A DNA stretch of 31,117 nucleotides from a virus (IMGVR_UViG_3300037041_000186:1-31117), one strand, 5' to 3'. Shown: positions 3,518 to 28,880, numbered from the stretch's first letter. The notes: generated by a model not told the origin, from the letters alone. A program made the numbers and translations.

Positions 3518-5839
3518 TCACACTTCGTCATGGCTGATCCACTCCCCGACCACCACGACGGCCACGTCTCTGGCCTGTCTCGGGTCTGTGATGCGCTCGA
3601 CGGCCAGCACGTTTGTCTTGATCCAAGTCTTCAGAATGGACGCCACTTTCGCCTTCCCTTTCTTCTCCGTGATGTCGATGCCCAGCATGTCTGCTATCGG
3701 GACGCCCACCCAGTTCTTGGACTGCGAACTCTCGCGCAGCGGCTCACCATCTGTGTGGGCGTCGGCGACGATCCTCTGGGCTGCTTTGGCGTCTTTGCCG
3801 CTGATGCCGTCAAAGGCGTTTGGCAGGGTGTACGGGATGCAGACACCGATCCACTCGCCGTTGTCGATCCTGACGCCTTCCATCTTGCGGTAGACGGCAG
3901 CGGCGGCTGGCGGGGCGAGGTTGGCCTTGCCGTCATCAACGCGGAAGATGCTGCGCGCCTCGGTCTCGTCGATGCCCAGCTTGGCTGCGTCGTCGGCTGA
4001 CATGCGGTTGATAACGCGGGCGGCACGGGCTGCACCGATCAGAGATCCTGCACCACGCACGCTGTCGATGCTGGCATCCTCGCCGTTGCCTTTGCGGATG
4101 TGATGCACCAGCCCGATGGCCGATTTCGTCTCATCAGCCACGCGCCTTATTTCCGCCACAATGGCGTTGACGGCCATGTTGTCGTTTTCGTTTATGTTGT
4201 GCGCGCCGACGAAGGGGTCGATGAACACGCAGCCGATCTGCTTTTCCGGGATTTTGCGGCAGAGGTATTCAACCAGCTTGGTGTTGGGCAGCACGCCGTC
4301 GCGGGTCTGTATGCCGAACTTCAGGCTGAAGTCTCGGCCAGCGTTGACGAACAGGCGACCCTCGACCTCGGCTGGCTTAATGCCGTAGTGGCGCATGGCA
4401 GACAGCACGCGGCGCTGGATCTCTTCCAGCGGATCTTCAAGGTTGACGATCCACACGTTGGTGCGCTCTTTCACCTCCTCGCCCAGCAGCGGGCGGCCCG
4501 TGACGATGGCGAGGGCTTCCACGATCTGGAGAGATGTCTTGCCGATGCCGCCTGCCGATGCCAGCACACTGACGAAGGAGCGCAGGTAGTGGTGGGCATA
4601 GATCCACTTGCGCGGCTCAATGCTGGCTTCGTCGAACATGTCGTAGAGGCTGGGCCAGTCGGGAGCTGCGTCAGGCGCGTCTGCTGGCGCGTCGGGGATC
4701 TCGGGCGGCGCTGCATCATCTTCGGCAGAGATCGCGCTGGCAGGTGCCTCTGACGCAGCGGTCGGGGCGATGTAGTCGAAATCATCCATGCCGTTGTCTG
4801 GCATCTCGTTGCGGGCCGGGTTGATCTCGGCACCATAGGCGCGCACGGCGCCGTCGAAGTCACCGTTGTGTTCGTAGTGGACGAACAGGTCGAAGGCGTC
4901 GCCCCAGCAATAGGAGTTCTCGCCCAGAGACTTCGGCCTGCCCACGCCGGCGGCTGCGTCTGAGCCTGAGAGGCTTACCCAATGCGATAAGAAGTTCTCT
5001 GTCGCGTAGCTGTGGCTCGTTTGATACCGAGAACGATAATGCTGGGATGATCCGCGCCGCTCATATTGATAGCGCAGAAGCAGATCCTCGATGCTGTGGT
5101 CAGCGTTGAAGGCATCGACCGGGCTGACCTCGTCGGGGAACTTCTGCCGGCGATCCGCACGCTGGCGCTCACGCTCGGCCCGCGCCCGGTCGGCCTGTTC
5201 TGAGGCCAAGCGGCGCTGTTCTGCCTTGCGGTGGAGTTCTTGCAGGATCGGGCTGTCGGCGTCGAGGCGCAGCGGTTTGCCGCGGATGATGCGGTGCTGG
5301 TAGAAGATCGGGGTCAGGTCGGGGTTGCGGCGATCGATCGGCACGTTGGGCAGGTAGATCGGCTGGCCGCAGCGTGCCAGGGCGCCGTCAGGGTGTACGC
5401 CATTGACGTGCAGCAGATCAAAGAATGCGGTCTGGATCTCTTCGTATTCGGCGCCGGTGACGATGGCGGCCAGCGGGATGATGGCGCGCCATTTGCGGTT
5501 CTCTGGGCTTGCCCCCGAGGATGAATAGATCAGGATGCTGACATCACCGCAGACGGCCTGCACAGCCTCTTGCACATCGTCGATCGATGGGTTGCCACGG
5601 TCCACGTCGATGGCAAGCGCACGGTACGCGCCATGCTCACGCTGGGCTTCGTGTGCGCGTCCGTCGTGCGCCCGGTAGGTGGACGGGATGAAGAAGTCTG
5701 CATCCCGCTTTTCTTTGGCCTGCGGGGTCTGCACCAGCTTGACGATCTCGTTCCAGCCGATGCCGGGGTAAGTTTCGCCGGGCTTGTCGATGAGCGTGAA
5801 GAAAGATCCTGGCGCTGTCAGGAAACGGACATCAGACAT
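3518..5839 (-). CDS. Primase-polymerase / RepA-type helicase fusion
   Basis: This 773-residue replication protein appears to combine primer synthesis and DNA unwinding. Residues about 1-190 resemble an archaeo-eukaryotic primase fold: ALAIDVDRGN (D78 and D80, likely metal ligands) and SSSGASPENRKWRAIIPL (106-123). A charged helical stretch (200-234) and an Ala/Pro/Asp-rich linker (355-395) follow. Residues 410-620 are a RecA/RepA-like ATPase with Walker A ASAGGIGKTS (427-436), Walker B VFIDP (538-542) and GLVHHIRKG (576-584). The C-terminus is probably a small winged-helix-like region. AAGGA precedes the ATG, which also overlaps a 17-codon leader frame. No DNA polymerase gene is visible, so host polymerase is probably recruited (inference). 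Confidence 0.85.
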   Translation of the reverse strand: MSDVRFLTAPGSFFTLIDKPGETYPGIGWNEIVKLVQTPQAKEKRDADFFIPSTYRAHDGRAHEAQREHGAYRALAIDVDRGNPSIDDVQEAVQAVCGDVSILIYSSSGASPENRKWRAIIPLAAIVTGAEYEEIQTAFFDLLHVNGVHPDGALARCGQPIYLPNVPIDRRNPDLTPIFYQHRIIRGKPLRLDADSPILQELHRKAEQRRLASEQADRARAERERQRADRRQKFPDEVSPVDAFNADHSIEDLLLRYQYERRGSSQHYRSRYQTSHSYATENFLSHWVSLSGSDAAAGVGRPKSLGENSYCWGDAFDLFVHYEHNGDFDGAVRAYGAEINPARNEMPDNGMDDFDYIAPTAASEAPASAISAEDDAAPPEIPDAPADAPDAAPDWPSLYDMFDEASIEPRKWIYAHHYLRSFVSVLASAGGIGKTSLQIVEALAIVTGRPLLGEEVKERTNVWIVNLEDPLEEIQRRVLSAMRHYGIKPAEVEGRLFVNAGRDFSLKFGIQTRDGVLPNTKLVEYLCRKIPEKQIGCVFIDPFVGAHNINENDNMAVNAIVAEIRRVADETKSAIGLVHHIRKGNGEDASIDSVRGAGSLIGAARAARVINRMSADDAAKLGIDETEARSIFRVDDGKANLAPPAAAAVYRKMEGVRIDNGEWIGVCIPYTLPNAFDGISGKDAKAAQRIVADAHTDGEPLRESSQSKNWVGVPIADMLGIDITEKKGKAKVASILKTWIKTNVLAVERITDPRQARDVAVVVVGEWISHDEV

Positions 5840-5958: not shown

Positions 5959-6606
5959 TCACCACGGGATGTCGTCTGCCAATTCTTCTTTGATGCTCTG
6001 GCGCTTTTCTTCGGCCAGCGGTTTCTGCTCGAAGGGGTCCGACTTGCTTTCCACGGTGTCGAAGTCATCCATGCCGCCGTCGCCATAGCGGGCTTCGACC
6101 ACCTGCACGGCATCCAACAGCATCGAGATGCCGCCGTTGCCGTCCGGGTCGATCACGGCCACGGCCCACGCACGCACGGTGCCTTTGGAGCCGCCCCAGA
6201 ACGACAGGTCGGCCAGCGGCTGCTTCTGCCCGTCGATGACGGTGGGCGCCTTGTTGGGCGTGCCGTCTTTCTTCATGCCGTTGCGCTTGGCGGTGAACTG
6301 CACCATGCCGGTCTCGGTGCCATGCTCGTCCTTCAGCTTCTTCATGCCGAAGACGGTCTTGAACTGCGGCATCTTCGGGTTGCGGCCACGGCATGCGTCG
6401 TAGTGCGCCTTGAGTTGCTCAAAGAGCGGGCGGGCCTCTTCCTTGGTCATCTCGAAGCCGACCGACCAGGCCGCCCCGGAAGCGGTCGCTGCGCAGGGTT
6501 CGCTGGCCTGCTTCTGGGTATTGAAGCGATGCGGTTGCGAAAGCTTTGGATATTGGAAGGTCACGTTTTTAGCCAAGACCTTCATGAAGTCATCGTTATT
6601 TGCCAT
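5959..6606 (-). CDS. Single-stranded DNA-binding protein (DUF2815/Enc34-like)
   Basis: This 215-residue protein should coat single-stranded DNA during replication and recombination. It begins with VTFQYPKLSQPHRFNT, as in the DUF2815/Enc34 SSB family of T7 gp2.5-like OB-fold proteins. The middle contains FGMKKLKDEHG, VQFTAKRN and LSFWGGSKGTVRAWAVAVIDPDGNG. The C-terminus is acidic and ends ELADDIPW, the SSB-type tail that binds partner proteins (DDIPF in many bacteria). AGAGAGGAG precedes the ATG. It is cotranscribed with the exonuclease upstream, and the pair probably forms a recombination and replication unit with it. The aromatic last residue and acidic tail make the call secure even though overall similarity to cellular SSB is low. 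Confidence 0.85.
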   Translation of the reverse strand: MANNDDFMKVLAKNVTFQYPKLSQPHRFNTQKQASEPCAATASGAAWSVGFEMTKEEARPLFEQLKAHYDACRGRNPKMPQFKTVFGMKKLKDEHGTETGMVQFTAKRNGMKKDGTPNKAPTVIDGQKQPLADLSFWGGSKGTVRAWAVAVIDPDGNGGISMLLDAVQVVEARYGDGGMDDFDTVESKSDPFEQKPLAEEKRQSIKEELADDIPW

Positions 6607-6632: not shown

Positions 6633-7445
6633 TCAGAAGTCAACGGTTTCGTCGAACACGTCGGCTTCAGGCTCTTCGGTCTGCCAACGCGGCAGATCGA
6701 CATGGTTAATCAAGGGCCAGCCGGTTGTGAAGGTGTTTGCGGCTTCGGCTCTGGATATTTTTTCGAGGGTGTCGGTGACGCGCAGATCGGCGGCAGCGAG
6801 GTAGCGATCCGTCAGCGCGTGCAGACCGACAGCGTAGGGGGCTTCCTTCTCGACGCAGACGAAGATGAAGGTGTGGGCGTCATGCCCGGCAGCACGCAGG
6901 CAGCGCAGGTAGAACGCGGCTTGCAGATCGTAGCCATAGTTGCGGATCTCACGCGGAAAGCCGTCGGGTCTGGCGTCACGGGTTGTCTTCAGATCGAACA
7001 CGATGCCGGCGGTTGGCATATAGCCGTCAGGTCGGCACTTGATCTTGACGCCCGTCTGCGGATCGGTCGCGAAGAAGCTGGCTTCGGCCACAAAGCTGGG
7101 ATCGGCCACCCATGCCTTGACGACTTCGTGGCTGATGATCGGCGCCGCGATCTTCTCGGCTAGATCGTAGTCACCCTCGGTCAGCAGGATCTGGCCATCC
7201 AGATCGGCGGCAAGCTGGGCCTTTTTCCACTTGTCGCCACGGCGATCTTCGGGGCCACGCAAGACGAGGTTCTTTTCCGGCTCAAGCACCAGAGCGTGAA
7301 CTGCGCTGCCCAAGGCGAAGGCGCTGCTGTCTTTCCAGACCTTGCCCTTCCAGTGTGCCAGCGACTTGCCAGCGACGGCTTTGACATCGCTGCTGCTGAT
7401 CTCTGGGCGTGCGTGGTATGCTTCGTTTGATAGGTCGCGGATCAT
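6633..7445 (-). CDS. PD-(D/E)XK exonuclease, RecE/DUF3799-like
   Basis: This 270-residue nuclease probably resects double-stranded DNA ends for phage recombination. I start it at the ATG at 7445, which follows GAGGAAGA and overlaps the RuvC-like stop as ATGA; the longer open frame upstream is only read-through across the previous gene. From this start, the core motifs are GSAVHAL (G46, H50), E121 in EASFF, RPDGY with D140, DLKTT (151-155, the D-x-K of the PD-(D/E)XK core) and Q175xxxY179 in the following helix. This order is that of RecE/lambda-exonuclease-like and DUF3799 proteins. The beginning IRDLSNEAYHARPEISSSD is typical of phage members. The C-terminal DVFDETVDF is acidic. The SSB follows directly. 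Confidence 0.85.
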   Translation of the reverse strand: MIRDLSNEAYHARPEISSSDVKAVAGKSLAHWKGKVWKDSSAFALGSAVHALVLEPEKNLVLRGPEDRRGDKWKKAQLAADLDGQILLTEGDYDLAEKIAAPIISHEVVKAWVADPSFVAEASFFATDPQTGVKIKCRPDGYMPTAGIVFDLKTTRDARPDGFPREIRNYGYDLQAAFYLRCLRAAGHDAHTFIFVCVEKEAPYAVGLHALTDRYLAAADLRVTDTLEKISRAEAANTFTTGWPLINHVDLPRWQTEEPEADVFDETVDF

Positions 7446-7879
7446 TTCTTCCTCCATCCATAAAGTGCGATCAGCGCCGCCTCGGCTCTGCCGTCGTCTT
7501 TGACCCGCGCCCACTGATCGGAGCAGTCGGGGAAGTATTGGCTGGCCAGCGCGCGGCTGGCGTTCTTGTCGGTCGATAGCCGCATGTTTTTCTTCCACGC
7601 GGACGGATCGACCTCAAAGGTCGGCACGCCGGCGAAGAACAGGCAGGCCTTCAGTTCACCGTAGGCCTGCGCGATGGTCACGGCGTTTTTGATGCCGATC
7701 ATCCGGGGGAAGAACGGGCGTTCAAGCCACGCGCACTTCACAGATCCGATGTCCGAGATCAGCGCACGCTTTTCGTCGAGTGTGCCGGGCATGTCGTAGG
7801 TGCTGACCTGCATGTCGTCGCAGTCCAGCAGCGCGAAGGCGCCCTGCTTGCCGGGATCAATGCCAAGGATCAGGGTCAT
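7442..7879 (-). CDS. RuvC-like Holliday junction resolvase
   Basis: This 145-residue endonuclease should resolve branched DNA formed by replication and recombination before packaging. It has the RuvC/RNase H-fold motif order: ILGIDPG with D8, WLERP with E53, basic residues in SAWKKNMR (K96, K97), and the C-terminal acidic motif KDDGRAEAALIALYG (D128/D129, E133). The length matches compact phage RuvC-like enzymes. It overlaps its neighbours at both ends through ATGA junctions and is followed by the exonuclease gene. The last motif has Glu where many RuvC proteins have Asp, a common phage variant. A general structure-specific nuclease role is possible. Confidence 0.85.
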   Translation of the reverse strand: MTLILGIDPGKQGAFALLDCDDMQVSTYDMPGTLDEKRALISDIGSVKCAWLERPFFPRMIGIKNAVTIAQAYGELKACLFFAGVPTFEVDPSAWKKNMRLSTDKNASRALASQYFPDCSDQWARVKDDGRAEAALIALYGWRKK

Positions 7880-8145
7880 GCCTCACCCGTCGCGATCTCG
7901 CCGCCGCACGCCAGATAGCCGCAGCCGTCCACCCAGTTGTCGGCGTGTCCTGGGTTGGCCTTGGCGCGGGCCAGCTTCATCAGGGTCATCATGATGGCGA
8001 CATCTTCCGGACCGATGCCGACGTCGAGGTGCGCAGACCAGTAACACGCGATCAGGCCGAAGTTGCTTTCGGCGTCACCGTGCGTGTCGGCACGGTCTTT
8101 GGTGACGTATTCTTTGGCGGTGTCGAGGATATCGCTGCGATTCAT
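7876..8145 (-). CDS. DUF6378-like conserved phage protein
   Basis: This 89-residue protein starts MNRSDILDTAKEYVTKDRADTHG. The ATG at 8145 is preferred because GGAGGGA precedes it and it overlaps the HTH gene stop as ATGA; a longer frame eight codons upstream lacks these signs. The conserved block contains TKDRADTHGDAESNF, YWSAHL, VAIMMTLMKLARAKANPGHADNWVDGCGYLACG. The several His/Asp/Glu residues and the helical pattern recall all-alpha nucleotide-handling proteins, but no activity is established. The pattern matches a widely distributed small phage family (DUF6378). It is the second gene of the leftward early operon. Confidence 0.75.
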   Translation of the reverse strand: MNRSDILDTAKEYVTKDRADTHGDAESNFGLIACYWSAHLDVGIGPEDVAIMMTLMKLARAKANPGHADNWVDGCGYLACGGEIATGEA

Positions 8146-8360
8146 GCGAAGTCCCTCCCAGAAATCCATTCCTCTTCAAACCGCAGATCCTCGATCCCGG
8201 TTATGTCGGCCAATCGGTGGCGGTATACTGCTGACGGCACAACGCGGCCAGTCATCCAGCGGCTAAGGCTGGAAGATGCCACCGGCACTTTTCTTGCCAG
8301 CCAGCCAAGTTTGCGCCCGTCTTGAGCGCACCATAGCCGGATTTGAGTTTGAGCCATCAT
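8142..8360 (-). CDS. Helix-turn-helix transcriptional regulator (Cro/CI-like)
   Basis: This 72-residue protein is the probable regulator of the divergent early region. Residues 19-37 (GWLARKVPVASSSLSRWMTG) form a Cro/CI-type helix-turn-helix, followed by RVVPSAVYRHRLADITGI, a usual continuation of the fold. There is no dimerisation or cleavage domain, so it is Cro-sized rather than a full repressor. I use the ATG at 8360 after GGAGGA; an in-frame GTG at 8396 behind AGGAGG would add 12 residues. Its gene leads the leftward replication operon and faces paired GTGCAA/TTGCAC sites at 8454-8503, its likely operators. Autoregulation is an inference from this placement. Confidence 0.75.
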   Translation of the reverse strand: MMAQTQIRLWCAQDGRKLGWLARKVPVASSSLSRWMTGRVVPSAVYRHRLADITGIEDLRFEEEWISGRDFA

Positions 8361-9760: not shown

Positions 9761-9972
9761 TGTTTTTCCGTAAGAAACCAGAAACCATGCCCGTGCGTGA
9801 CGTGCAGTCCGAGGCGGTGGCAGCTATCATTCAGGGGTCGGCTGTGCTGCCCAGCAAGCGGCTGACGAATGCGATATACACGGCCTTGCTGGACAACCGC
9901 GTGTCGGTCGAGGAGTTGGACGATCTGGCGAACCGCATCAGCCGCCTTGCGTGGCAGAGGGGGAGAAAATGA
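9757..9972 (+). CDS. Small early protein of unknown function
   Basis: This 71-residue protein begins MMFFRKKPETMPVRDVQ and has a helical middle (SEAVAAIIQGSAVLP, NRVSVEELDDLANRISRLAWQRGRK). Strong GGAGGAGG precedes the paired ATGs at 9757 and 9760. It overlaps both neighbours as ATGA. The basic N-terminus and C-terminus could contact nucleic acid, but this is speculation; I do not recognise the family. Confidence 0.5.
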   Translation: MMFFRKKPETMPVRDVQSEAVAAIIQGSAVLPSKRLTNAIYTALLDNRVSVEELDDLANRISRLAWQRGRK

Positions 9973-10307
9973 CTGACGAAGAACTGATCGCAAAGTTGCG
10001 CGGTGAACCGACATGGGGCGGAATTGTGGTTCTTACAAAGCAAGACGCCAACCGCATCGAAGCCCTGACTGCCGAGTTGGCCACCTGCAAGAAATACCGT
10101 GACGCCTATGCCGAGTGCGACAGGATAGGGACGCAAGCTGTGCGTGACCTCGAAGACAAGCTGGCGAAGGCAGAGGCAGAAGCTAAAAAATATAAACACG
10201 CCTTTGCGGCACAATCCCGCAAGCTGCAAGCGGTGCTTCATATTGAAGGCGTCAAAGCCACCCTCGCAGAGATCAAAGGAGGCAATGATGCCGAGAGCAA
10301 TTTGTGA
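9969..10307 (+). CDS. Early coiled-coil protein, repeat-cassette member 1
   Basis: This 112-residue protein begins MTDEELIAKLRGEPTWGG. The middle DANRIEALTAELATCKKYRD and LEDKLAKAEAEAKKYKHAF is a coiled coil. Near the end it carries KATLAEIKGG, the cassette C-terminal motif, but frame continues a little further (NDAESNL). GGGGGAGAAA precedes the ATG at 9969, which overlaps the previous stop. Two 19-base DNA blocks (9974-9992 and 10051-10069) are identical to blocks in the gene at 11055, showing recent duplication. Proteins with this DEELI-ADRIEALTA-LAKA pattern are common in phage early regions but have no known activity. Confidence 0.55.
   Translation: MTDEELIAKLRGEPTWGGIVVLTKQDANRIEALTAELATCKKYRDAYAECDRIGTQAVRDLEDKLAKAEAEAKKYKHAFAAQSRKLQAVLHIEGVKATLAEIKGGNDAESNL
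10258..10290 (+). repeat. Junction repeat copy 1 (variant)
   Basis: The CTCGCAGAGATCAAAGGAG core (10262-10282 region) matches the other junctions, but the tail is GCAATGATG instead of AGAGCCATGAGTG. It encodes TLAEIKGG and supplies the ribosome binding site of the next gene. Confidence 0.7.
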
Positions 10308-10593
10308 AGACTGCGGGTCTCTGGTTGAAGCAGAGTTGACGCACAATGGTATCTGCGCGGTTGGCCATTACGTTCACTGCGGCTGGGGGCATCAACTGTC
10401 GCCAGATGACCTAATCTCAGATGACGCAGCCGAAATCATCTCAAAGCTAGAAACCAAGCTGGCGAAGGCGGTGGAGGCTTTGGACGAAGCGGTTTACCTG
10501 CTTAAGCCTGACGAAAAAGACATGATGCGACAGGCAGGCGTGTATCGGATTGTGACCACCCTCGCAGAGATCAAAGGAGAGAGCCATGAGTGA
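10288..10593 (+). CDS. Early protein with Cys/His cluster and cassette C-terminus
   Basis: This 101-residue protein begins MPRAICEDCGSLVEAELTH. CEDC plus GHYVHCGWGH could form a small zinc-binding knuckle in residues 1-35. The rest is helical with KLAKAVEALDEAVYLL, and the C-terminus is TTLAEIKGESHE, the repeated cassette motif. AGGAGG stands five bases before the ATG at 10288; an ATG directly before it is too close. Its frame overlaps the previous gene by 20 bases. A zinc-binding adaptor is a guess from the cysteines and histidines. Confidence 0.55.
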   Translation: MPRAICEDCGSLVEAELTHNGICAVGHYVHCGWGHQLSPDDLISDDAAEIISKLETKLAKAVEALDEAVYLLKPDEKDMMRQAGVYRIVTTLAEIKGESHE

Positions 10594-10595
10594 CG
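10556..10595 (+). repeat. Junction repeat copy 2
   Basis: Forty bases identical to copy 3 at 11025-11064. They encode the C-terminal TLAEIKGESHE of the gene before, the AAAGGAGAG ribosome binding site, and ATGAGTGAC, the first codons of the gene after. Confidence 0.85.
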
Positions 10596-11062
10596 CTACA
10601 TTCTACATTGACTGCGAATTTGACGGGCATGATGGGCCACTTCTCAGCATCGCAATGGTGCGGGGCGACGGCTATAGCCTGCACGTTGAAGTGATCCAAG
10701 ATGCAAAAGACCCTTGGGTGATTTCCAACGTCATGCCGATTATGGACGCGCACAAGGCCGATATAACGCGAGTATCAGAACCTTTCTATGTCGGCCCGTT
10801 CCTTCGGGATTTCATGGGTAACTGCCAAAACCCCACCATCATCGCAGACAGCCCCGTGGATATTGGCCGCTTCTGCCGCGCTATCAGCACAGGCTATGAC
10901 GGTGGCTGGCAATCGACTGACTTTCAGCAGATGACGTTCATAGTTCGCAACGTGGACTGCTATCCCACGACGCTGGAAGGCGCGGTGCAACACAATGCTT
11001 GGTGGGATGCCATGGCCCTTCGCGCCACCCTCGCAGAGATCAAAGGAGAGAGCCATGAGTGA
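10586..11062 (+). CDS. DEDDh 3'-5' exonuclease (Rv2179c/RNase T-like)
   Basis: This 158-residue enzyme probably trims RNA or DNA 3' ends. The DEDDh motifs are present in order: FYIDCEFDGHDGPLLSIAMV with D9 and E11, IIADSPVDIGRF with D88 (and D92), and HNAWWDAMAL with H136 and D141. The spacing fits compact phage-type exoribonucleases of the Rv2179c-like family. It is the only recognisable enzyme of the early cassette array. Its last residues, TLAEIKGESHE, are the cassette motif and are not part of the nuclease fold, so the gene seems to have been fused at the junction repeat. The ATG overlaps the previous stop by 8 bases. Host mRNA turnover is a plausible target. Confidence 0.8.
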   Translation: MSDATFYIDCEFDGHDGPLLSIAMVRGDGYSLHVEVIQDAKDPWVISNVMPIMDAHKADITRVSEPFYVGPFLRDFMGNCQNPTIIADSPVDIGRFCRAISTGYDGGWQSTDFQQMTFIVRNVDCYPTTLEGAVQHNAWWDAMALRATLAEIKGESHE

Positions 11063-11064
11063 CG
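11025..11064 (+). repeat. Junction repeat copy 3
   Basis: Identical over 40 bases to copy 2, although the genes before the two copies are unrelated (Cys/His coiled-coil protein versus exonuclease). The end encodes the start of the gene at 11055. Confidence 0.85.
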
Positions 11065-11276
11065 AAGAACTGATCGCACGGCTGCGGGAGGGTGCAACGT
11101 GGGACGATGATATTGCCGCCGCCGACCGCATCGAAGCCCTGACGGCCACGCTGGCGAAGGCGGCGGAGGTTGGCAACAAAATGGCGCATTCGATTGAAGA
11201 GAACTACTACCTCCCAAACATAGCAGGAGAATGGCGTAAGGTTGCAGCCGAGATCAAAGGAGAGAACGATGAGTGA
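11055..11276 (+). CDS. Early coiled-coil protein, repeat-cassette member (paralog of 9969 gene)
   Basis: This 73-residue protein begins MSDEELIARLREGATWDDD and continues AAADRIEALTATLAKAAEVGN. It shares two 19-base identical DNA blocks with the gene at 9969 (11060-11078 and 11125-11143), placing the two as paralogs with a shortened middle. It ends VAAEIKGENDE, a variant of the cassette C-terminus. AAAGGAGAG precedes the ATG, which overlaps the exonuclease stop by 8 bases. No function is known. Confidence 0.55.
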   Translation: MSDEELIARLREGATWDDDIAAADRIEALTATLAKAAEVGNKMAHSIEENYYLPNIAGEWRKVAAEIKGENDE

Positions 11277-11277
11277 C
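11246..11277 (+). repeat. Junction repeat copy 4 (variant)
   Basis: The core GAGATCAAAGGAGAGA is retained, the left part diverges (GCAGCC), and the tail is ACGATGAGTGACG. It encodes AEIKGENDE and the next start codon. Confidence 0.75.
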
Positions 11278-11538
11278 GATCTGGTGAAGCGGCTTGATAG
11301 ATTTGATGCAGACGATTTGCACCGTGAAGCAGCCGACCGCATTGAGGAACTTGAAAAAGCCTGTGATGAATGGGCTGAGGTATCGCAGTCAAATTATCAG
11401 CGGGCAAAGGCAGCAGAAGCCAATCTGGCGAAGGCTGTCTGGGAGTTGGAAAGACTTGGGTTCGACTTTGAAAGTGTGGTTGGTCGTGACCTTATGCAAG
11501 CCATCATCGCAGAGATCAAAGGAGAGAGCCATGAGTAG
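11269..11538 (+). CDS. Early coiled-coil protein, repeat-cassette member
   Basis: This 89-residue protein begins MSDDLVKRLDRFDADD and continues LHREAADRIEELEKACDEWAE, then KAAEANLAKAVWELERLGF. It ends AIIAEIKGESHE. The layout (short start, ADRIEEL heptads, LAKA block, cassette end) matches the genes at 9969 and 11055. It uses the junction ribosome binding site and overlaps the previous stop by 8 bases. Function unknown. Confidence 0.55.
   Translation: MSDDLVKRLDRFDADDLHREAADRIEELEKACDEWAEVSQSNYQRAKAAEANLAKAVWELERLGFDFESVVGRDLMQAIIAEIKGESHE
11507..11536 (+). repeat. Junction repeat copy 5
   Basis: Thirty bases identical to the right part of copies 2 and 3, ending just after the next start codon. 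After ATGAGT the sequence diverges, so the following gene is unrelated to the other members. Confidence 0.8.
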
Positions 11539-11722
11539 ATATATTGTTGAGTGCGAACTCCCAACAGACATGATCCTTGGGATGAAAGCCATTAAGGCAT
11601 TGATAAGGTCTGAGTTGGAGCATGGCTGCACTAGCACTATTGTTGCCTTTGAAGACGATAGCATTTGGTATGTAAGAAAAACCAAGACAGGCTATTCAGC
11701 AAGGACAGCAGGAAAAACATGA
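11531..11722 (+). CDS. Small early protein of unknown function
   Basis: This 63-residue protein begins MSRYIVECELPTDMILGMKA and contains VAFEDDSIWYVRKTKTGYSAR, an alpha/beta pattern that could be one compact domain. The start lies at the last junction repeat, behind AAAGGAGAG. Unlike the genes before it, it lacks the cassette C-terminus. Base composition turns richer in A and T from here to 12238. No family is recognised. Confidence 0.5.
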   Translation: MSRYIVECELPTDMILGMKAIKALIRSELEHGCTSTIVAFEDDSIWYVRKTKTGYSARTAGKT

Positions 11723-11916
11723 CCCGATCCGCCAGCGATAGCCCAGCGGCCCGCGCTCTCAGAGACGCAGGTTACGTTAAGCTTCCCGGCTGGTGGGTTA
11801 CACTAGAACAGTATCAGATGATTCTCTGGATGGCAGAGAAGAACAAAGAAGAGATCGACCGCATAAAGGAGGCGGCAGTTGACAAACATTACCGAGATTC
11901 GTGGCGTAGTCTTTAG
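11719..11916 (+). CDS. Small early protein of unknown function
   Basis: This 65-residue protein begins MTRSASDSPAARALRDAGYVK and continues LPGWWVTLEQYQMILWMAEKN. The end KEEIDRIKEAAVDKHYRD is helical. A region of the GYVKLPGWWVT type appears in several small phage early proteins as a short folded unit. The ATG overlaps the previous stop as ATGA. The gene overlaps the next one by 38 bases. I cannot assign a role. Confidence 0.5.
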   Translation: MTRSASDSPAARALRDAGYVKLPGWWVTLEQYQMILWMAEKNKEEIDRIKEAAVDKHYRDSWRSL

Positions 11917-12238
11917 ATCACAGAAAGAAGCAGCCCAATGGGCAGGCGTCACACCTTCAGCCATCAGCACCAGACTATCCCACACTGGAACCCTTGAGCG
12001 TGTCGGCCTCAATCTAGCAGGCGGACAGATTGGCAATCAAGCAAATGCCAAACCACTAACTCTAGGCAAGACAACCTTCCCATCAAGAACGATTGCTGCC
12101 CAAGAAATAGGTATGAGCAGAGACAAGCTAACAAGAGCATTGTCTCCAAGAGCAACGACCGCAATGAAAGAAAGATTGCTCCTTGCTATCATGCGATACG
12201 AAGCCTTGAAGACAAATCATCAGGGCATTAGGATGTGA
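11879..12238 (+). CDS. Protein with two HTH-like repeats (NUMOD-like), TTG start
   Basis: This 119-residue protein starts at a TTG codon placed six bases after AAGGAGG; no ATG fits this frame with a similar site. It holds two related modules: VVFRSQKEAAQWAGVTPSAIS (residues about 10-30) and TTFPSRTIAAQEIGMSRDKLT (about 64-85). Each resembles the short helix-turn-helix unit that accompanies homing endonucleases (NUMOD type), but no nuclease motif is present. It may be a DNA-binding remnant of a homing element or a stand-alone regulator. It is the last gene before the convergent element. The sequence is AT-richer than the rest, which suggests recent acquisition. Confidence 0.55.
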   Translation: MTNITEIRGVVFRSQKEAAQWAGVTPSAISTRLSHTGTLERVGLNLAGGQIGNQANAKPLTLGKTTFPSRTIAAQEIGMSRDKLTRALSPRATTAMKERLLLAIMRYEALKTNHQGIRM

Positions 12239-12240
12239 TT

Positions 12241-12319
12241 CGAGGGGCGCACAAAGCACGGCTTTGTATTGGTCGAAGATCAGACTGCGCTACGGCTCAT
12301 CTTCATCAGGCGCCCCTCG
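12241..12319. other. Branched inverted-repeat element between convergent operons
   Basis: CGAGGGGCGC (12241-12250) pairs perfectly with GCGCCCCTCG (12310-12319). Inside lie two hairpins: ACAAAGC/GCTTTGT (12251-12267, three-base loop) and GAAGATCAG against CTCATCTTC (12275-12304, one mismatch). Together they give a three-way junction. It sits just after the plus-strand stop (12238) and just before the minus-strand stop (12323), so a two-way termination or RNA-stability role is likely, though no T-run follows. Confidence 0.65.
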
Positions 12320-12322
12320 CGA

Positions 12323-13465
12323 TTAATCTAAAAACCTGTCGATAGGGTCCAGCGCCCGCATGACGAGACCGTCCATCTTGTGGAAGGTCATAGATTGCAA
12401 AGCGCGCCGGCCACCGTATCCCATGCCGGCAGCATAAGCGTCAGGCGGGCAGAAGGCGCGCAGGCTCTCATAGCGCAACGGCCCGAGATCCTTGGCCTGG
12501 TCGTGGTGGACGTGGCCCGTCAGATAGTGCCGATGCCGCGTTTGCGACCAAAACGTGCAGACATCCGACAGATACAGCGCCATCTGCTGCGGTTTGCCCT
12601 TGTCGCCGTGGTGGGCGAAGATCGCGCACTTTCCCCACTGCAGCATGAACAGATCGCGCGGATCTTTCTCGATAGTCACCCGTGCCTCGTTGCGATAACG
12701 CTCGGCCAGCGCGAAATTCAATGTCATGCTACTGTGCGGGTCATGGTTCCCGCGAAGTACGCGAACCAGTACGTTTGCGTGCTTCTGGAGCAGCTTGTGG
12801 ATTGTCTCAGCGATGATGCCGATGCCGACATCCAGCACCTTCCAGAAGCGCCCGTCCACGTCCAGCTTGTGGCGGTTGGCTGGCGTCTCTGACCGGGTGT
12901 CGTCTGAGTGGAAGTAGTCGCCGCCGATCAGCAGCACGGCCTGCTCTGCCGCTGGTGTGAGCGCCAGCACCTTTGCAAAGGCGTGCCGCATGTCCTGAGC
13001 CGCGTGGCCGAGGTCATAGTCCTGTGACCCTGTTTCGCGGCCCCACGCCATCATGCCGACGTGCGCGTCCATGAGAGGATAGACGGCGCACAGATCGGCC
13101 ATCACGCTTTCAGGGGCCGGCACAGGCTCGGCAGGCTGCATGCCCTCCAGCGCCTCGCGTATGCGCTCAGCGACGGCCTCTGGCTGCTCTGCCTCGGGGC
13201 GCAGCATGACGGAATAGCCCGGCTCCTCGTCTTTGGCTGGAACCTTCACCCAAGCCAGCGACGGCACCATGTTTGTGCCAACGGCCTTCATGCTGTCAGC
13301 AATGGCAGGATCTACCCGGTAATCATCCCGGACATCCGAGGTCATCCCGGCGCGGTTCAGCATCCGCTGCATGTCGCGCCGATTAATTCCAATCTCACGC
13401 GCAGCCTCGGCCACGTTGCCCGTGCGCTTGAACGCCTCAACGGCCTGTTTCTGTCTAGGTGTCAT
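12323..13465 (-). CDS. HTH plus metallophosphoesterase protein
   Basis: This protein of about 380 residues joins a DNA-binding start to a calcineurin-like phosphoesterase. Counted from the ATG five codons upstream (13480), residues 16-44 (GNVAEAAREIGINRRDMQRML) are a helix-turn-helix; 138-140 DAH, GGDYFHSD (186-193), RGNHDPH (243-249), AHHGDKGK (289-296) and TGHVHHDQ (321-328) are the dinuclear-metal motifs in the right order. I prefer the ATG at 13465 (MTPRQKQAVEAF), but the start is uncertain. It overlaps the outer-spanin gene by 11 bases and is the last gene of the late operon. Such phage enzymes may act on DNA ends or nucleotides; the substrate is unknown. Confidence 0.8.
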   Translation of the reverse strand: MTPRQKQAVEAFKRTGNVAEAAREIGINRRDMQRMLNRAGMTSDVRDDYRVDPAIADSMKAVGTNMVPSLAWVKVPAKDEEPGYSVMLRPEAEQPEAVAERIREALEGMQPAEPVPAPESVMADLCAVYPLMDAHVGMMAWGRETGSQDYDLGHAAQDMRHAFAKVLALTPAAEQAVLLIGGDYFHSDDTRSETPANRHKLDVDGRFWKVLDVGIGIIAETIHKLLQKHANVLVRVLRGNHDPHSSMTLNFALAERYRNEARVTIEKDPRDLFMLQWGKCAIFAHHGDKGKPQQMALYLSDVCTFWSQTRHRHYLTGHVHHDQAKDLGPLRYESLRAFCPPDAYAAGMGYGGRRALQSMTFHKMDGLVMRALDPIDRFLD

Positions 13466-13679
13466 TGGCACACCCAGCATCGATCAGGCGGATCAGCCGC
13501 GCGCCCGTGACCAGCGAAAGCGGCCCGCCATCGTCAGCCAGAGCCGCCGCATGTTCCGTCCGCGCCGCCTCGGTTGCGCCGCAGATCGCCTCACCGCTTG
13601 CCACGCTCACGCAGCCAGCTTGCAACGCGGCTAGAATTGTGCAATGTAAAGCAACAGAAAACTTTGAGGTGCCTTGCAT
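13455..13679 (-). CDS. Outer-spanin-like lipoprotein candidate (Rz1-like)
   Basis: This 74-residue frame begins MQGTSKFSVALHCTILAALQAGC: a lysine, a hydrophobic run and a lipobox-like cysteine at residue 23 (the -3 position is Gln, so the lipobox is imperfect). The mature part, EAICGATEAARTEHAAALA then LVTGARLIRLIDAGC, resembles small lysis-cassette proteins of alphaproteobacterial phages. It would pair with the inner spanin at 14235 to fuse the membranes at lysis. The HNH gene on the other strand starts in the same CATG, so the original 5' end and ribosome binding site may have been replaced by that insertion. A downstream GTG start without the signal is the main alternative. Confidence 0.5.
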   Translation of the reverse strand: MQGTSKFSVALHCTILAALQAGCVSVASGEAICGATEAARTEHAAALADDGGPLSLVTGARLIRLIDAGCANDT

Positions 13680-14223
13680 GATCTCTGTCCCATATCTTGC
13701 CGAATGTGTCGAATACGATCCAAACACCGGGCTTTTCTATTGGCTTGAGCGACCTATACATCATTTCAAGTCTGGCCGATATGGCAGCGATGTAGTCGCC
13801 GCAGCGTGGAACGGGAAATATGCTGGGAAGCCTGCGTTTTCTCATCCCAACGGCAGGGGCTATCTTTTCGGGACCATCAACAGCAAGCACTATGCCGCCC
13901 ATCGGGTTGCCTACGCAATTATGACTAAGGAGTGGCCGTCTTGGACGGTTGACCACATCAATGGCGACCCAACCGACAATAGATTCGCAAACTTGCGAGA
14001 AGCGACCCCGGCGCAACAGATGATGAATTCCGCAAAAAGGGAAACAAAAATACGTGGAGTTGCTTGCCACAAGCGCAGCGGAGAAGTCCGTTTCAGCGCA
14101 TCGATTAGGGTTCACCTTGGCTATTTCAGCACTAAGGAGGCGGCGGCGGAAGCCTATGAAAAAGCAGCCAAGCAGGTTCATGACCGCGAGTTTTATTTGC
14201 CAAACGGGGTCAGATTGATTTGA
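13678..14223 (+). CDS. HNH homing endonuclease with AP2 DNA-binding domain
   Basis: This 181-residue protein is a free-standing homing endonuclease on the strand opposite the late genes. The HNH core comprises AAHRVAYA (H75) and VDHINGDPTDNRFANLRE (D92, H93, N95, N101, N105). Residues about 126-170 (RGVACHKRSGEVRFSASIRV, GYFSTKEAAAEAYEKAA) are an AP2-type DNA-binding domain. GAGGT stands seven bases before the ATG at 13678; the upstream extension of the open frame is antisense to the outer-spanin gene. It is AT-richer than its flanks. It sits between inner- and outer-spanin genes, which are normally adjacent or overlapping, so it is probably an insertion. Confidence 0.88.
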   Translation: MISVPYLAECVEYDPNTGLFYWLERPIHHFKSGRYGSDVVAAAWNGKYAGKPAFSHPNGRGYLFGTINSKHYAAHRVAYAIMTKEWPSWTVDHINGDPTDNRFANLREATPAQQMMNSAKRETKIRGVACHKRSGEVRFSASIRVHLGYFSTKEAAAEAYEKAAKQVHDREFYLPNGVRLI

Positions 14224-26229: not shown

Positions 26230-27480
26230 TTATTGCTGAACCTGCGTAACCGCCATCAATCCGGCGGGCGCGGCTGGGTAATTATTCGGCGCGGTGCCAC
26301 CGGCTGCCACGGTAGAGAGCGACACGTTTGTGCTGTCAGACATCCACCACAACTCGATATACTCGCCGGCATCTAGGCTGAAAAACTCGGCCATTGATAG
26401 GGGCGAGTATCCGTTGTTGATGTCCAGCGTGATGAGGCGCATGGAGTTTGTGACGTTGGTGCCGTTCTTCTTATACCAAAATCGCACCGTCTTGGCACTG
26501 CTGCTTCCGCTCGAAAGCTGCAAGGTCAGATCGAACTGATACAGGCCAGAGTCAACGACGGTAAGCTGGGTGCCAGAGACGATGCTGATGCCGTTTGAGA
26601 TGTCCGCGTTGTCCCATGTTACCGCATAAGCGACGTTGGCCGAGGCTGGCGACACCGTGCCTGTCTTCGAAAACTCGCCATAATATTGCTGCTGCTCAAT
26701 GGTCGGACGCACGAATATTTCGCCGTTGACCGCATCCGATGCCAGAACAGCCGCGACAGGTATTACGTTGTCGGGCGCGGTCGGCTTGGTTGCCGTAAGG
26801 CCGCCCGCCACTGTCGGGCTGGCATAGAGAATGTCGCCGACCGAGAACGCGCTGGTGTCCATGCCGCGCACATGGCCCCAGACCGTGCAATAGCCGACCT
26901 CGCCGCTGTCGGGCAGATCATGCGTCAGCACGCCGAGGATGTAGAGCGATGACAGGGTTCCGTCTGCCAGATACGGCGTGACCGAAAGCACATTGTTCGC
27001 GCCAACGCCGGCAAAGCCGACCACGGTGCCGTTAGGGATCATGACGCCCGTCATGTTCTCGACGCGGGCGTAATACTCCAGGCCGATCTGCTGGACCACG
27101 CCGTATTCCATGCCGAGATCCGCAGTCTGATCGGCATCGTTCCACGCCAAGCGACCGATCCGGCTGACATGCGGCGCGGCAAGGTTCAGATCCAGATAAT
27201 CCGTGCGCAGCGAATTGTGCGCGTCAGACGTTGGCCCCTTGCCGATCAAATCGGCCAGCCGTTCAGCCGCCGTCGCGCTAGCCAAAGCCACCTCGGCCTT
27301 ATTGTCAGCCGATCCCGTGGCATAGCTGTTGTCGAGGATCAACTGCGTCAGTGCCGCAATCTCGTCAGGCGTCAACTGCCCAGCGACCTTAAACAGCCGC
27401 TCGATGGCGCGGATGGCGTCAGGGTCATTGCCGACAAAGGCGGCGATCTGGTTGCGGTTCAGTGGGGTCGGATCAGCCAT
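26230..27480 (-). CDS. Virion fibre-like protein with C1q-like C-terminal domain
   Basis: This 416-residue protein begins MADPTPLNRNQIAAFVGNDP; the ATG at 27480 overlaps the previous stop as TGATG and the extra 29 codons upstream are discarded. The N-terminal 120 residues are helical. Residues about 130-270 are beta-rich (VGFAGVGANNVLSVTPYLAD, ILYASPTVAGGL). The last 140 residues (FSKTGTVSPASANVAYAVTW, GLYQFDLTLQLSSGSSSAKT, LDAGEYIELWWMSDSTNVSL) fit a C1q/TNF-like jelly roll, a trimeric tip domain. A head or tail fibre or knob is likely. Confidence 0.7.
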   Translation of the reverse strand: MADPTPLNRNQIAAFVGNDPDAIRAIERLFKVAGQLTPDEIAALTQLILDNSYATGSADNKAEVALASATAAERLADLIGKGPTSDAHNSLRTDYLDLNLAAPHVSRIGRLAWNDADQTADLGMEYGVVQQIGLEYYARVENMTGVMIPNGTVVGFAGVGANNVLSVTPYLADGTLSSLYILGVLTHDLPDSGEVGYCTVWGHVRGMDTSAFSVGDILYASPTVAGGLTATKPTAPDNVIPVAAVLASDAVNGEIFVRPTIEQQQYYGEFSKTGTVSPASANVAYAVTWDNADISNGISIVSGTQLTVVDSGLYQFDLTLQLSSGSSSAKTVRFWYKKNGTNVTNSMRLITLDINNGYSPLSMAEFFSLDAGEYIELWWMSDSTNVSLSTVAAGGTAPNNYPAAPAGLMAVTQVQQ

Positions 27481-28880
27481 CAGAACGCCAGCGGTTCTAC
27501 CCGCGCCTCCAGCCGTGCCATCGCAAGCTGCGCCTCGCTGGTGCCACGGAACTTCTGCAAACGCCAATTGCGCATGTTGCCCTGCTGAAGCCAGACCACC
27601 CGCTTGTTATATTCGCCCAGCTTGCCCACACGCGCCGGCTTCTCGACGCTGTAGGTCAGCCCATCAAGCGAGTATGATGTCCAGACAGTTGGATCGGCGC
27701 CGGGCTGCACGCGGCCCGTCAGGCTGACCAGTTCCATCTCATGGAAGATCGCCCCGCGCCCTTCGTTGTAGACGATGGCCGTGCCGAACTCCCAGCCAAT
27801 GGTCTCGCCCCAATGCGTGGCGATGCTCTTGTCCAGATAGCCAACGTCGGTGTCAGCAGGCTTGCAGACGTTCCAGCGATCATAGGCCCAGACAGCATCG
27901 CAGACAGCCCACCGACCGAGGCCAACCAGAGACGTGCGCAGGAAGAACCAGACAGGCTGACCAACGGCCTGAGATCCGGCGGCGTCGAACACGATGGTCT
28001 GATCCGGCAGGTGGATGTCGAGGAACTGATGCGCGCCCTCGGTGCGCTCCTGCATGAACGAGGTGGAAAGCTGTGCCTCAGTGTATCCGGCCAGGATCTC
28101 CTCGATCTCGCGCGTGGCGATCTTAGACACCGTGCCGTTGGCCCCGATGTAGATCGAGATGTTCTCGTTGGTGCCGCTGCCCATGAAGGCGATGTTCTCG
28201 CCAAAGACGCAGCAGGTGTGCGTGCCAAGCGTTCCCTTTTGCATCTGGGCGCCGGGGATGCGCTGGAACGGAAAGCCCGCCGTGCCGGTGTTGTCAAACA
28301 CCTCGATGGTGTGGCGGTTCAGCGCGTAGATCTCGTTGCGCAGCTTCAGCAGTGCCTTCACCGGGTCAGGGTCAGCTTCAGATGATCCATATTTCAACGG
28401 ATCGACGGCAAAGGGGTTGTTCAGTTCCGTGATGACGAGAAACTCGCCGTCAGTGGTCATGAAGTAACCATCAACCCAGACCACCGTCAGAGCCGCGCCA
28501 AGATCCGGGTCAGTCACCTGCGTCAGCGTGGTGCCGTCGTAGAGGTAAAGCCGACCGCCCGACGTGACCGCCAGATAGTCAAAGCTGTAGGTGAACGTCA
28601 CGCGGCCACCGCTGCCCACGTCCCCGATCACCGTGACGGTGCCGTTCTGCGCGACAGTCACCAGCTTGGTTCCCATGACGCGGTACAGCACGCCGTTCCA
28701 GTTCAGGCCGCCACGGTTTGATCCTGGCCCGTCGCCGGTCTTTACGATGCCCTCTGCCGGGCGAAGATAGCCCTCCGAGATGCCCGTGGATTTCGGCACA
28801 GGCACAAGGTTGACAGGATAGCCCGTCCGAAAGTCGGGCGTGCTATCCGTAAAAATCCCGCTCAGCAGAGGTATTTGCAT
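27480..28880 (-). CDS. P22 gp10-like packaged DNA stabilisation / tail hub protein
   Basis: This 466-residue protein seals the portal channel after packaging in P22-like phages. It begins MQIPLLSGIFTDSTPDFRTG and keeps family features: YPVNLVPVPKSTGISEGYLR, GNRGGLNWNGVLYRVMGTKL-type beta-propeller-like blades, and NRHTIEVFDNTGTAGFPFQR. The C-terminus RVVWLQQGNMRNWRLQKFRG is also typical. The length is close to gp10. It starts right after the HNH stop (TAAATG) with GAGG upstream, so expression depends on ribosomes reading through the inserted gene or on its internal site. Confidence 0.88.
   Translation of the reverse strand: MQIPLLSGIFTDSTPDFRTGYPVNLVPVPKSTGISEGYLRPAEGIVKTGDGPGSNRGGLNWNGVLYRVMGTKLVTVAQNGTVTVIGDVGSGGRVTFTYSFDYLAVTSGGRLYLYDGTTLTQVTDPDLGAALTVVWVDGYFMTTDGEFLVITELNNPFAVDPLKYGSSEADPDPVKALLKLRNEIYALNRHTIEVFDNTGTAGFPFQRIPGAQMQKGTLGTHTCCVFGENIAFMGSGTNENISIYIGANGTVSKIATREIEEILAGYTEAQLSTSFMQERTEGAHQFLDIHLPDQTIVFDAAGSQAVGQPVWFFLRTSLVGLGRWAVCDAVWAYDRWNVCKPADTDVGYLDKSIATHWGETIGWEFGTAIVYNEGRGAIFHEMELVSLTGRVQPGADPTVWTSYSLDGLTYSVEKPARVGKLGEYNKRVVWLQQGNMRNWRLQKFRGTSEAQLAMARLEARVEPLAF

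Follow-up and report, generated by a model that had tools for sequence, protein, structure and literature searches.

Shared linkers in a hypervariable phage early-gene array and the likely exchange of cassettes and half-genes by homologous recombination

Genes and repeats of the array

We analysed a full viral stretch of 31,117 nt (IMGVR_UViG_3300037041_000186; hereafter the window), in which an array of small genes is joined by a repeated junction of ~46 bp. This block combines one gene's end, a ribosome binding site and the next gene's start, and we refer to it as linker L4 and to its copies as repeat family D1. The first-pass annotation, made from the sequence alone, had claimed the same sequence at five gene boundaries, and we confirmed a five-copy family on the plus strand with copies starting at 10258, 10556, 11025, 11239 and 11501. 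A 27-mer junction pattern (≤3 mismatches) gave 4 matches in the window, compared to 0 expected in shuffles. The upstream frame of the junction reads ACC CTC GCA GAG ATC AAA GGA GAG AGC CAT GAG TGA (TLAEIKGESHE*) and the downstream frame ATG AGT GAC (MSD), with AAAGGAG as the ribosome binding site and a stop/start overlap of 8 bases, at which neighbouring genes may be translationally coupled. Copy 2 (10556..10595; LAEIKGESHE, AAAGGAG and ATGAGTGAC; placed by D1 membership, pattern match and breakpoint comparison) and copy 3 (11025..11064; D1 and breakpoint comparison) are identical over exactly 40 bp, as had been claimed, with a mismatch at the adjoining base on each side, and they separate unrelated genes. 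The overlap is ATGAGTGA in copies 2-4, and copy 4 (11239..11278; D1; variant VAAEIKGENDE) diverges within its first ~10 bases. Copy 5 (11501..11540; D1 and pattern match; IIAEIKGESHE) ends in ATGAGTAG, and the next gene begins ATGAGTAGA. Copy 1 (10258..10297; D1) is a variant (...LAEIKGGNDAESNL) in which the upstream frame continues to GGNDAESNL and the following gene starts with ATGATGCCG.

The array genes all lie on the plus strand. Cassette 1 (9969..10307) encodes a coiled-coil-type protein of 112 amino acids with a variant tag at its end, and cassette 2 (10288..10593) joins a Cys/His N-module to a different C-module and carries the tag LAEIKGESHE. Cassette 3 (10586..11062) is a DEDDh exonuclease (Rv2179c-like) with a junction-derived tail, followed by cassette 4 (11055..11276; 73 amino acids), cassette 5 (11269..11538; 89 amino acids) and the last junction-started gene (11531..11722; 63 amino acids, MSRYIVECEL), a relative of which stands after a junction in contig L046. 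The N-halves of genes 9969 and 11055 are paralogs of each other, and the two 19-base blocks previously attributed to this pair are present as families D5 and D6.

A second repeated block, missed in the first-pass annotation, lies inside the genes. This block, CTGGCGAAGGC (LAKA, family D3), which we call L3, occurs on the plus strand in four window genes, about 100 nt upstream of the junction: at 10161..10171 in gene 9969, 10459..10469 in the Cys/His gene, 11151..11161 in gene 11055 and 11425..11435 in gene 11269. A further internal linker, L2 (GCCGACCGCATCGA, ADRIEAL, family D10), is over-represented across arrays and lies at 11118..11134 (plus strand), with further copies at 10044-10060 and 11329-11345. 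The Cys/His N-module is 97.7% identical to that of L015 and 95% identical to that of L053. In 12-base bins, the match between L015 and the window rises from 4 to 12/12 at 10257, inside junction 1, and falls from 12 to 4 at 10473, just past L3, downstream of which the homology with L053 ends as well; junction 1 and the internal linker bound the shared stretch of this gene. Together, the window breakpoints lie at 10257, ~10473, 10556-10560 and ~11062, and L3 emerges as a second site of exchange beside the junction.

Linkers shared by unrelated cassettes and genomes

We next consider the exonuclease, whose tail had been taken for a foreign C-terminal tag. Across ~40 homologues, the core ends in NAWWDAMALR or a close variant, and the downstream tails differ and are unrelated. 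The tail LAEIKGESHE (ATLAEIKGESHE) was found only in the window, L066 and L067, all of them junction-bearing, and is missing from every homologue without a junction; it is not a family trait, which bears out the claim. The window exonuclease is 76-78% identical to the other two junction-bearing ones, and the three are followed by three unrelated genes. With L067, 84% identity extends from 10556 to 11060, that is, from junction 2 to junction 3. The DEDDh catalytic residues (D9, E11, D88 or D92, H136 and D141) are invariant and the protein matches the Rv2179c structures 4oke/6s0m (E 1.2e-6). It resembles a DEDDh 3'-5' exoribonuclease of the Rv2179c type, and this match makes it cargo rather than an obvious recombinase. 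The earlier idea that this exonuclease takes part in recombination needs a correction, as the RecE-like nuclease, annealing protein and resolvase of the window are the likelier candidates.

Degenerate junction patterns retrieved 44, then 62 stretches from IMG/VR. The exact 20-base junction core had no match among 84,980 sequenced species of bacteria and archaea, and a broader pattern gave 0 matches in 385 genomes of the class of Phenylobacterium genome G051. Every junction copy in 20 larger records lay on one strand, and a reversed control pattern was unmatched. We parsed 92 junctions in 60 arrays (47 arrays once near-duplicates were removed) and observed many different genes on both sides. 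The search of related phages that had been proposed as a check revealed copies flanked by dozens of different cassettes, with gene order not kept. A flank test on 69 junctions was restricted to the 2,212 pairs in which both the upstream and the downstream modules are unrelated. In these pairs, identity was ~0.27 outside the block, which is the chance level, and averaged 0.68 (range 0.4-1.0) inside it. Raised identity spanned -18 to +27 relative to the GAG codon, of which the core from -6 to +13, apart from its N positions, belonged to the search pattern and the outer parts did not. Silent sites were conserved as well, with Leu as CTC in 55/59 cases (background 0.10), Ala as GCA in 62/69 (background 0.19) and Thr as ACC in 44/48 (background 0.31), which places the sharing at the level of DNA.

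The junction occurs in the dialects LAEIKGE, LAEIEGE and LAELKGQ/D, with 34 copies of CTGGCCGAGATTGAGGGAGAG (LAEIEGE). In L147-L246 (e.g. L218, L211 and L207), CTGGCCGAGATTGAGGGAGAG and CTCGCAGAACTGAAAGGACAA (LAELKGQ) act like the window junction, with dialects at times mixed within one array. Junctions at ~4590 in L051 and ~4864 in L053 contain a 12-bp tandem duplication (GAGATCAAAGGAGAGATCAAAGGA), such as slippage or unequal pairing might produce, that yields the tag LAEIKGEIKGE. The annotated 61-kb Manatee Spring myovirus MW202675 (L109) carries the junction variants CTCGCAGAACTGAAAGGAGA (~5780) and CTCGCAGCAATCAAGGGAGA (~6010), the former also present in contig G033.

The arrays vary independently of the genomes around them. 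G037 and G009 have structural and recombination genes in common with the window, and array contents differ in all three; in the window's close relatives, structural and helicase genes are 84-98% identical and array contents are different. Nine other large junction-bearing contigs share 0-8 of ~122 window open reading frames. The array-end gene (11879..12238, plus strand) nevertheless has 97% amino acid identity to genes in G010/G012, two of these contigs that are otherwise unrelated to the window. Unrelated phages therefore carry such arrays with their cargo, which may be moved by enzymes other than those of the window.

The words most commonly shared across arrays are the junction, GCCGACCGCATCGA (ADRIEAL, L2) and CAAGCTGGCGAAGG (KLAKA, L3), and 74 cassette proteins together give the consensus M-x-D-x-EL...ADRI...LEAKLAKAV..L...RATLAEIKGESH. 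L3 encodes EAKLAKAVEAL, and we split the cassettes there into N- and C-modules. One C-module, present 11 times, had 7 N-modules before it and 8 genes after it, and other C-modules occurred 2-4 times each with differing partners. We observed pairs of C-modules with 95-100% identity whose N-parts and downstream genes are unrelated. The right-hand breakpoints of shared C-modules fell in the junction block (L4) in 58/68 pairs and the left-hand breakpoints clustered at L2 or just upstream of L3, with the pairs being non-independent. The swap model of the first-pass annotation stands for whole genes at the junction and needs a correction, as exchange is also seen within genes at the second linker.

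The strongest evidence for exchange comes from linker-bounded before/after pairs. In seven distinct genome pairs we observed one clean insert of 200-515 bp whose ends are direct linker copies (16-48 bp) and whose flanks match on both sides at 91-100%. At the junction, L002 has one 469-bp cassette more than L025, which carries a single 48-bp junction copy there. Single-cassette differences in another dialect separate L216 from L262 (272 bp at 32 bp) and L224 from L218 (200 bp at 33 bp), and L229 and L015 differ at the junction by 370 bp at 30 bp. The intragenic pairs, which differ at L2/L3, are L025 and L016 (515 bp at 16 bp), L247 and L014 (221 bp at 44 bp), and L208 and L246 (325 bp at 23 bp). 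In L016 the product is a single intact gene, an in-frame fusion that takes its N-module from one gene and its C-module from the following one. Both insert ends lay in linkers in 15/62 clean indel (insertion or deletion) pairs, compared to a mean of 1 and a maximum of 9 in 500 shifted-linker controls. An earlier breakpoint test on all BLAST matches, in which the share of match ends near junctions was 13% on the left and 7% on the right (~5% expected), was weak overall because long paralogous matches dominate, and the module-level and clean-indel tests took its place. The linker-bounded indels and the differing arrays of close relatives support the proposal that the array is a site of gene gain, loss and swap. 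In L012 (3475-3735), and also in L014, L016, L031 and L041, the cassette end ADSALIKGESHE matches only the second half of the junction, which suggests that a partial junction is usable for crossover.

Exchange at linkers and its alternatives

We consider it very likely that the array is a hypervariable early-gene locus in which cassettes and half-gene modules are exchanged by homologous recombination at shared linkers. This reading builds on direct observations, namely linkers shared between chance-level flanks, conservation at silent sites, boundaries inside linkers, indels at linker repeats and unrelated backbones. L4 supplies the upstream gene's last ~10 residues, the Shine-Dalgarno sequence and the next gene's first codons, and L2 (ADRIEAL) and L3 (EAKLAKAVEAL) link N- to C-modules within one coiled-coil-type protein family. 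Linker copies would then recombine homologously, within one genome or between co-infecting phages, and could thereby delete, insert or swap a cassette or half-gene such that the reading frame, ribosome binding site and stop/start overlap survive. We infer that the agent is homologous recombination or single-strand annealing at the linkers, either of which would account for the direct repeats at insert ends, for products that stay in frame and for conservation at the level of DNA. Rad52-like phage recombinases accept short, diverged homology, in work that left out the gp2.5 class (PMC3945230). A broader and decidedly tentative proposal is that the system is an evolvability device, a community-wide pool of cassettes and half-genes whose linker dialects are kept interoperable by selection; unrelated phages might then build new early-gene sets and chimeric proteins without a cassette-specific recombinase.

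Several findings weigh against exchange at linkers as the explanation. Linker bounds are absent from 47/62 clean indels, and other recombination therefore shapes the region too. Many pairs are non-independent, so that the counts overstate the number of events, which at the event level is seven. A RecE homologue and phrog_112 were not found in the nine other large junction-bearing contigs, nor RecT (PF03837) in 20 junction-bearing records; no single phage recombinase is thus tied to the arrays, and host RecA or other enzymes could act on them. Selection for expression could contribute to junction conservation, and all junction-bearing genomes are metagenomic.

The strong Shine-Dalgarno sequence AAAGGAG with its correct spacing to ATG, together with a position and one-strand orientation like those of the mycobacteriophage SAS element (PMC3203893), could also mark the junction as a conserved translation-initiation or regulatory element under functional selection, with recombination incidental. 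We regard this as unlikely, since silent-position conservation reaches ~18 nt upstream into coding sequence, differently lettered dialects (the 34 copies of CTGGCCGAGATTGAGGGAGAG) serve the same job, and L3, which has no start site, has recombinant boundaries of the same kind. Less probable still is ordinary illegitimate recombination, after which selection would retain intact gene boundaries. This would explain breaks at gene boundaries, which are typical of phage mosaicism, and the 47/62 indels outside linkers, but not the direct repeats of 16-48 bp at both insert ends of linker-bounded events, nor the several breaks within genes at L3. A history of tandem duplication and divergence from one ancestral gene, with no exchange between genomes, could have left the paralogous N-halves of genes 9969 and 11055 (D5, D6) and the consensus architecture common to many cassettes. 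We find it very improbable: unrelated proteins (exonuclease, Lar-like and helix-turn-helix) have the junction alone in common with flanks at chance, near-identical modules sit beside unrelated neighbours in different contigs, and modules common to otherwise unrelated backbones contradict it.

Two further possibilities carry almost no weight in our assessment. Cassettes of one gene each that share an orientation and a repeated boundary are reminiscent of site-specific, integron-like recombination at the junction. However, a tyrosine recombinase (PF00589) was present in 1/20 junction-bearing records and missing from the other 19 and from the window, the junction fold is weak (-2.7 kcal/mol), and crossovers occur at several unrelated linkers, so that we rejected membership in this class. 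The other is a metagenome assembly artefact at short repeats, which is conceivable as every junction-bearing relative is metagenome-assembled. Against it, five metagenomes yielded the fused form (L012/L014/L016/L031/L041) and two the long, unfused form (L025/L027), common short reads are longer than the linkers, and the circular 61-kb record MW202675, annotated as a complete genome, has junction variants.

Known systems, cargo and genomic setting

Exchange at shared linkers has precedents. Boundary sequences or linkers between phage modules go back to Susskind and Botstein 1978 and Clark et al. 2001 (cited in PMC3029335), and such sequences were proposed as sites of modular exchange for P22 and HK620. 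There, as here, short homologous module edges allow general recombination of non-homologous modules. We observed short conserved module edges that separate unrelated modules, and natural recombinants with the crossover inside the conserved sequence. Unlike in that case, a single linker present in many copies joins dozens of cassettes within an array, both of its sides are coding (C-terminal tag, ribosome binding site and start), and intragenic linkers swap half-genes. In the Cluster I mycobacteriophage Island3, the adjacent genes 67 and 68 have a 60-bp 3' end and 18 similar C-terminal residues in common, and a relative with one repeat copy lacks the gene, which was called the first such mycobacteriophage example (PMC3029335). 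Island3 represents a single event, whereas the present case comprises many cassettes, genomes and several linker types.

The SAS element (PMC3203893) is 13 bp long with a proposed role in translation and is likewise a repeated AGGAG element just upstream of many unrelated non-structural starts, mostly in one orientation. Its sequence is different, and the text consulted describes no linked C-terminal tag or internal linker; the 13-bp consensus GGGATAGGAGCCC was not matched and the junction consensus AAAGGAGAGAGCCATGAG differs. PeSL cassettes of T4-like phages carry promoter/terminator stem-loop motifs (Arbiol 2010 and Comeau 2014, as cited in PMC4503421), and this repeated intergenic motif is credited with gene shuffling in variable regions. 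We rejected PeSL identity, as the junctions have no promoter-like match, no intergenic space (the genes overlap) and a weak fold. The lambda Ea22 family (PMC10834534) is similar in being a mosaic early coiled-coil protein with an N-segment and an exchangeable C-terminus; the text consulted describes no shared junction array, and Ead_Ea22 Pfam matched 0/74 cassette proteins. A literature search covering part of the literature found no paper describing this linker array. What is new is the combination of a dual-coding junction for many cassettes, intragenic linkers, dialects and before/after pairs. The origin of phage genome mosaicism is a long-standing question, and here natural genomes display the boundary sequence, its many cassettes, the recombinants and the before/after pairs together, at the gene and half-gene level.

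Few known families occur among the 74 cassette proteins: Lar TIGR03655 (two), one RyR domain, helix-turn-helix proteins and the exonuclease. PADLOC, Pfam, PHROGs and NCBIfam searches of the cassettes gave almost nothing besides the two Lar, one RyR and helix-turn-helix matches. In L050 (552-764), a Lar-like restriction-alleviation protein bears the junction tail LAEIKGDSHE, which places counter-restriction cargo in the pool. The cargo may plausibly act in host takeover or counter-defence. These data provide a concrete, testable model of how small early genes, some of them likely counter-restriction genes, spread between unrelated phages, and the junction offers a DNA tag for discovering new cargo genes.

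To the left of the array, the window carries a repressor-like gene and leftward recombination and replication genes. Three minus-strand candidates are likely to be the recombination enzymes in the window's group: a RecE/exonuclease VIII-like nuclease (6633..7475; phrog_412 4e-72, PF12684), a gp2.5-like single-stranded DNA-binding/annealing protein (5959..6606; phrog_112 1e-14) and a Holliday-junction-resolvase-like protein (7442..7879; phrog_1770 8.5e-26). A primase-helicase-like gene (3518-5839) is also leftward, and 27480-28880 encodes a head closure protein of a kind known from P22-like phages. The product of 7876-8169 is a 97-residue DUF6378 protein, for which the PHROGs label phosphofructokinase looks doubtful. 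Rfam gave zero matches in the window, including the hairpin-like, GC-rich segment with which the array ends on the right (12241..12323, plus strand), which is conserved in about 30 arrays despite otherwise differing flanks and may be a terminator or a further exchange boundary. Adjoining the array's right flank, 13459-14223 encodes an HNH endonuclease with an AP2 domain, possibly a homing endonuclease.

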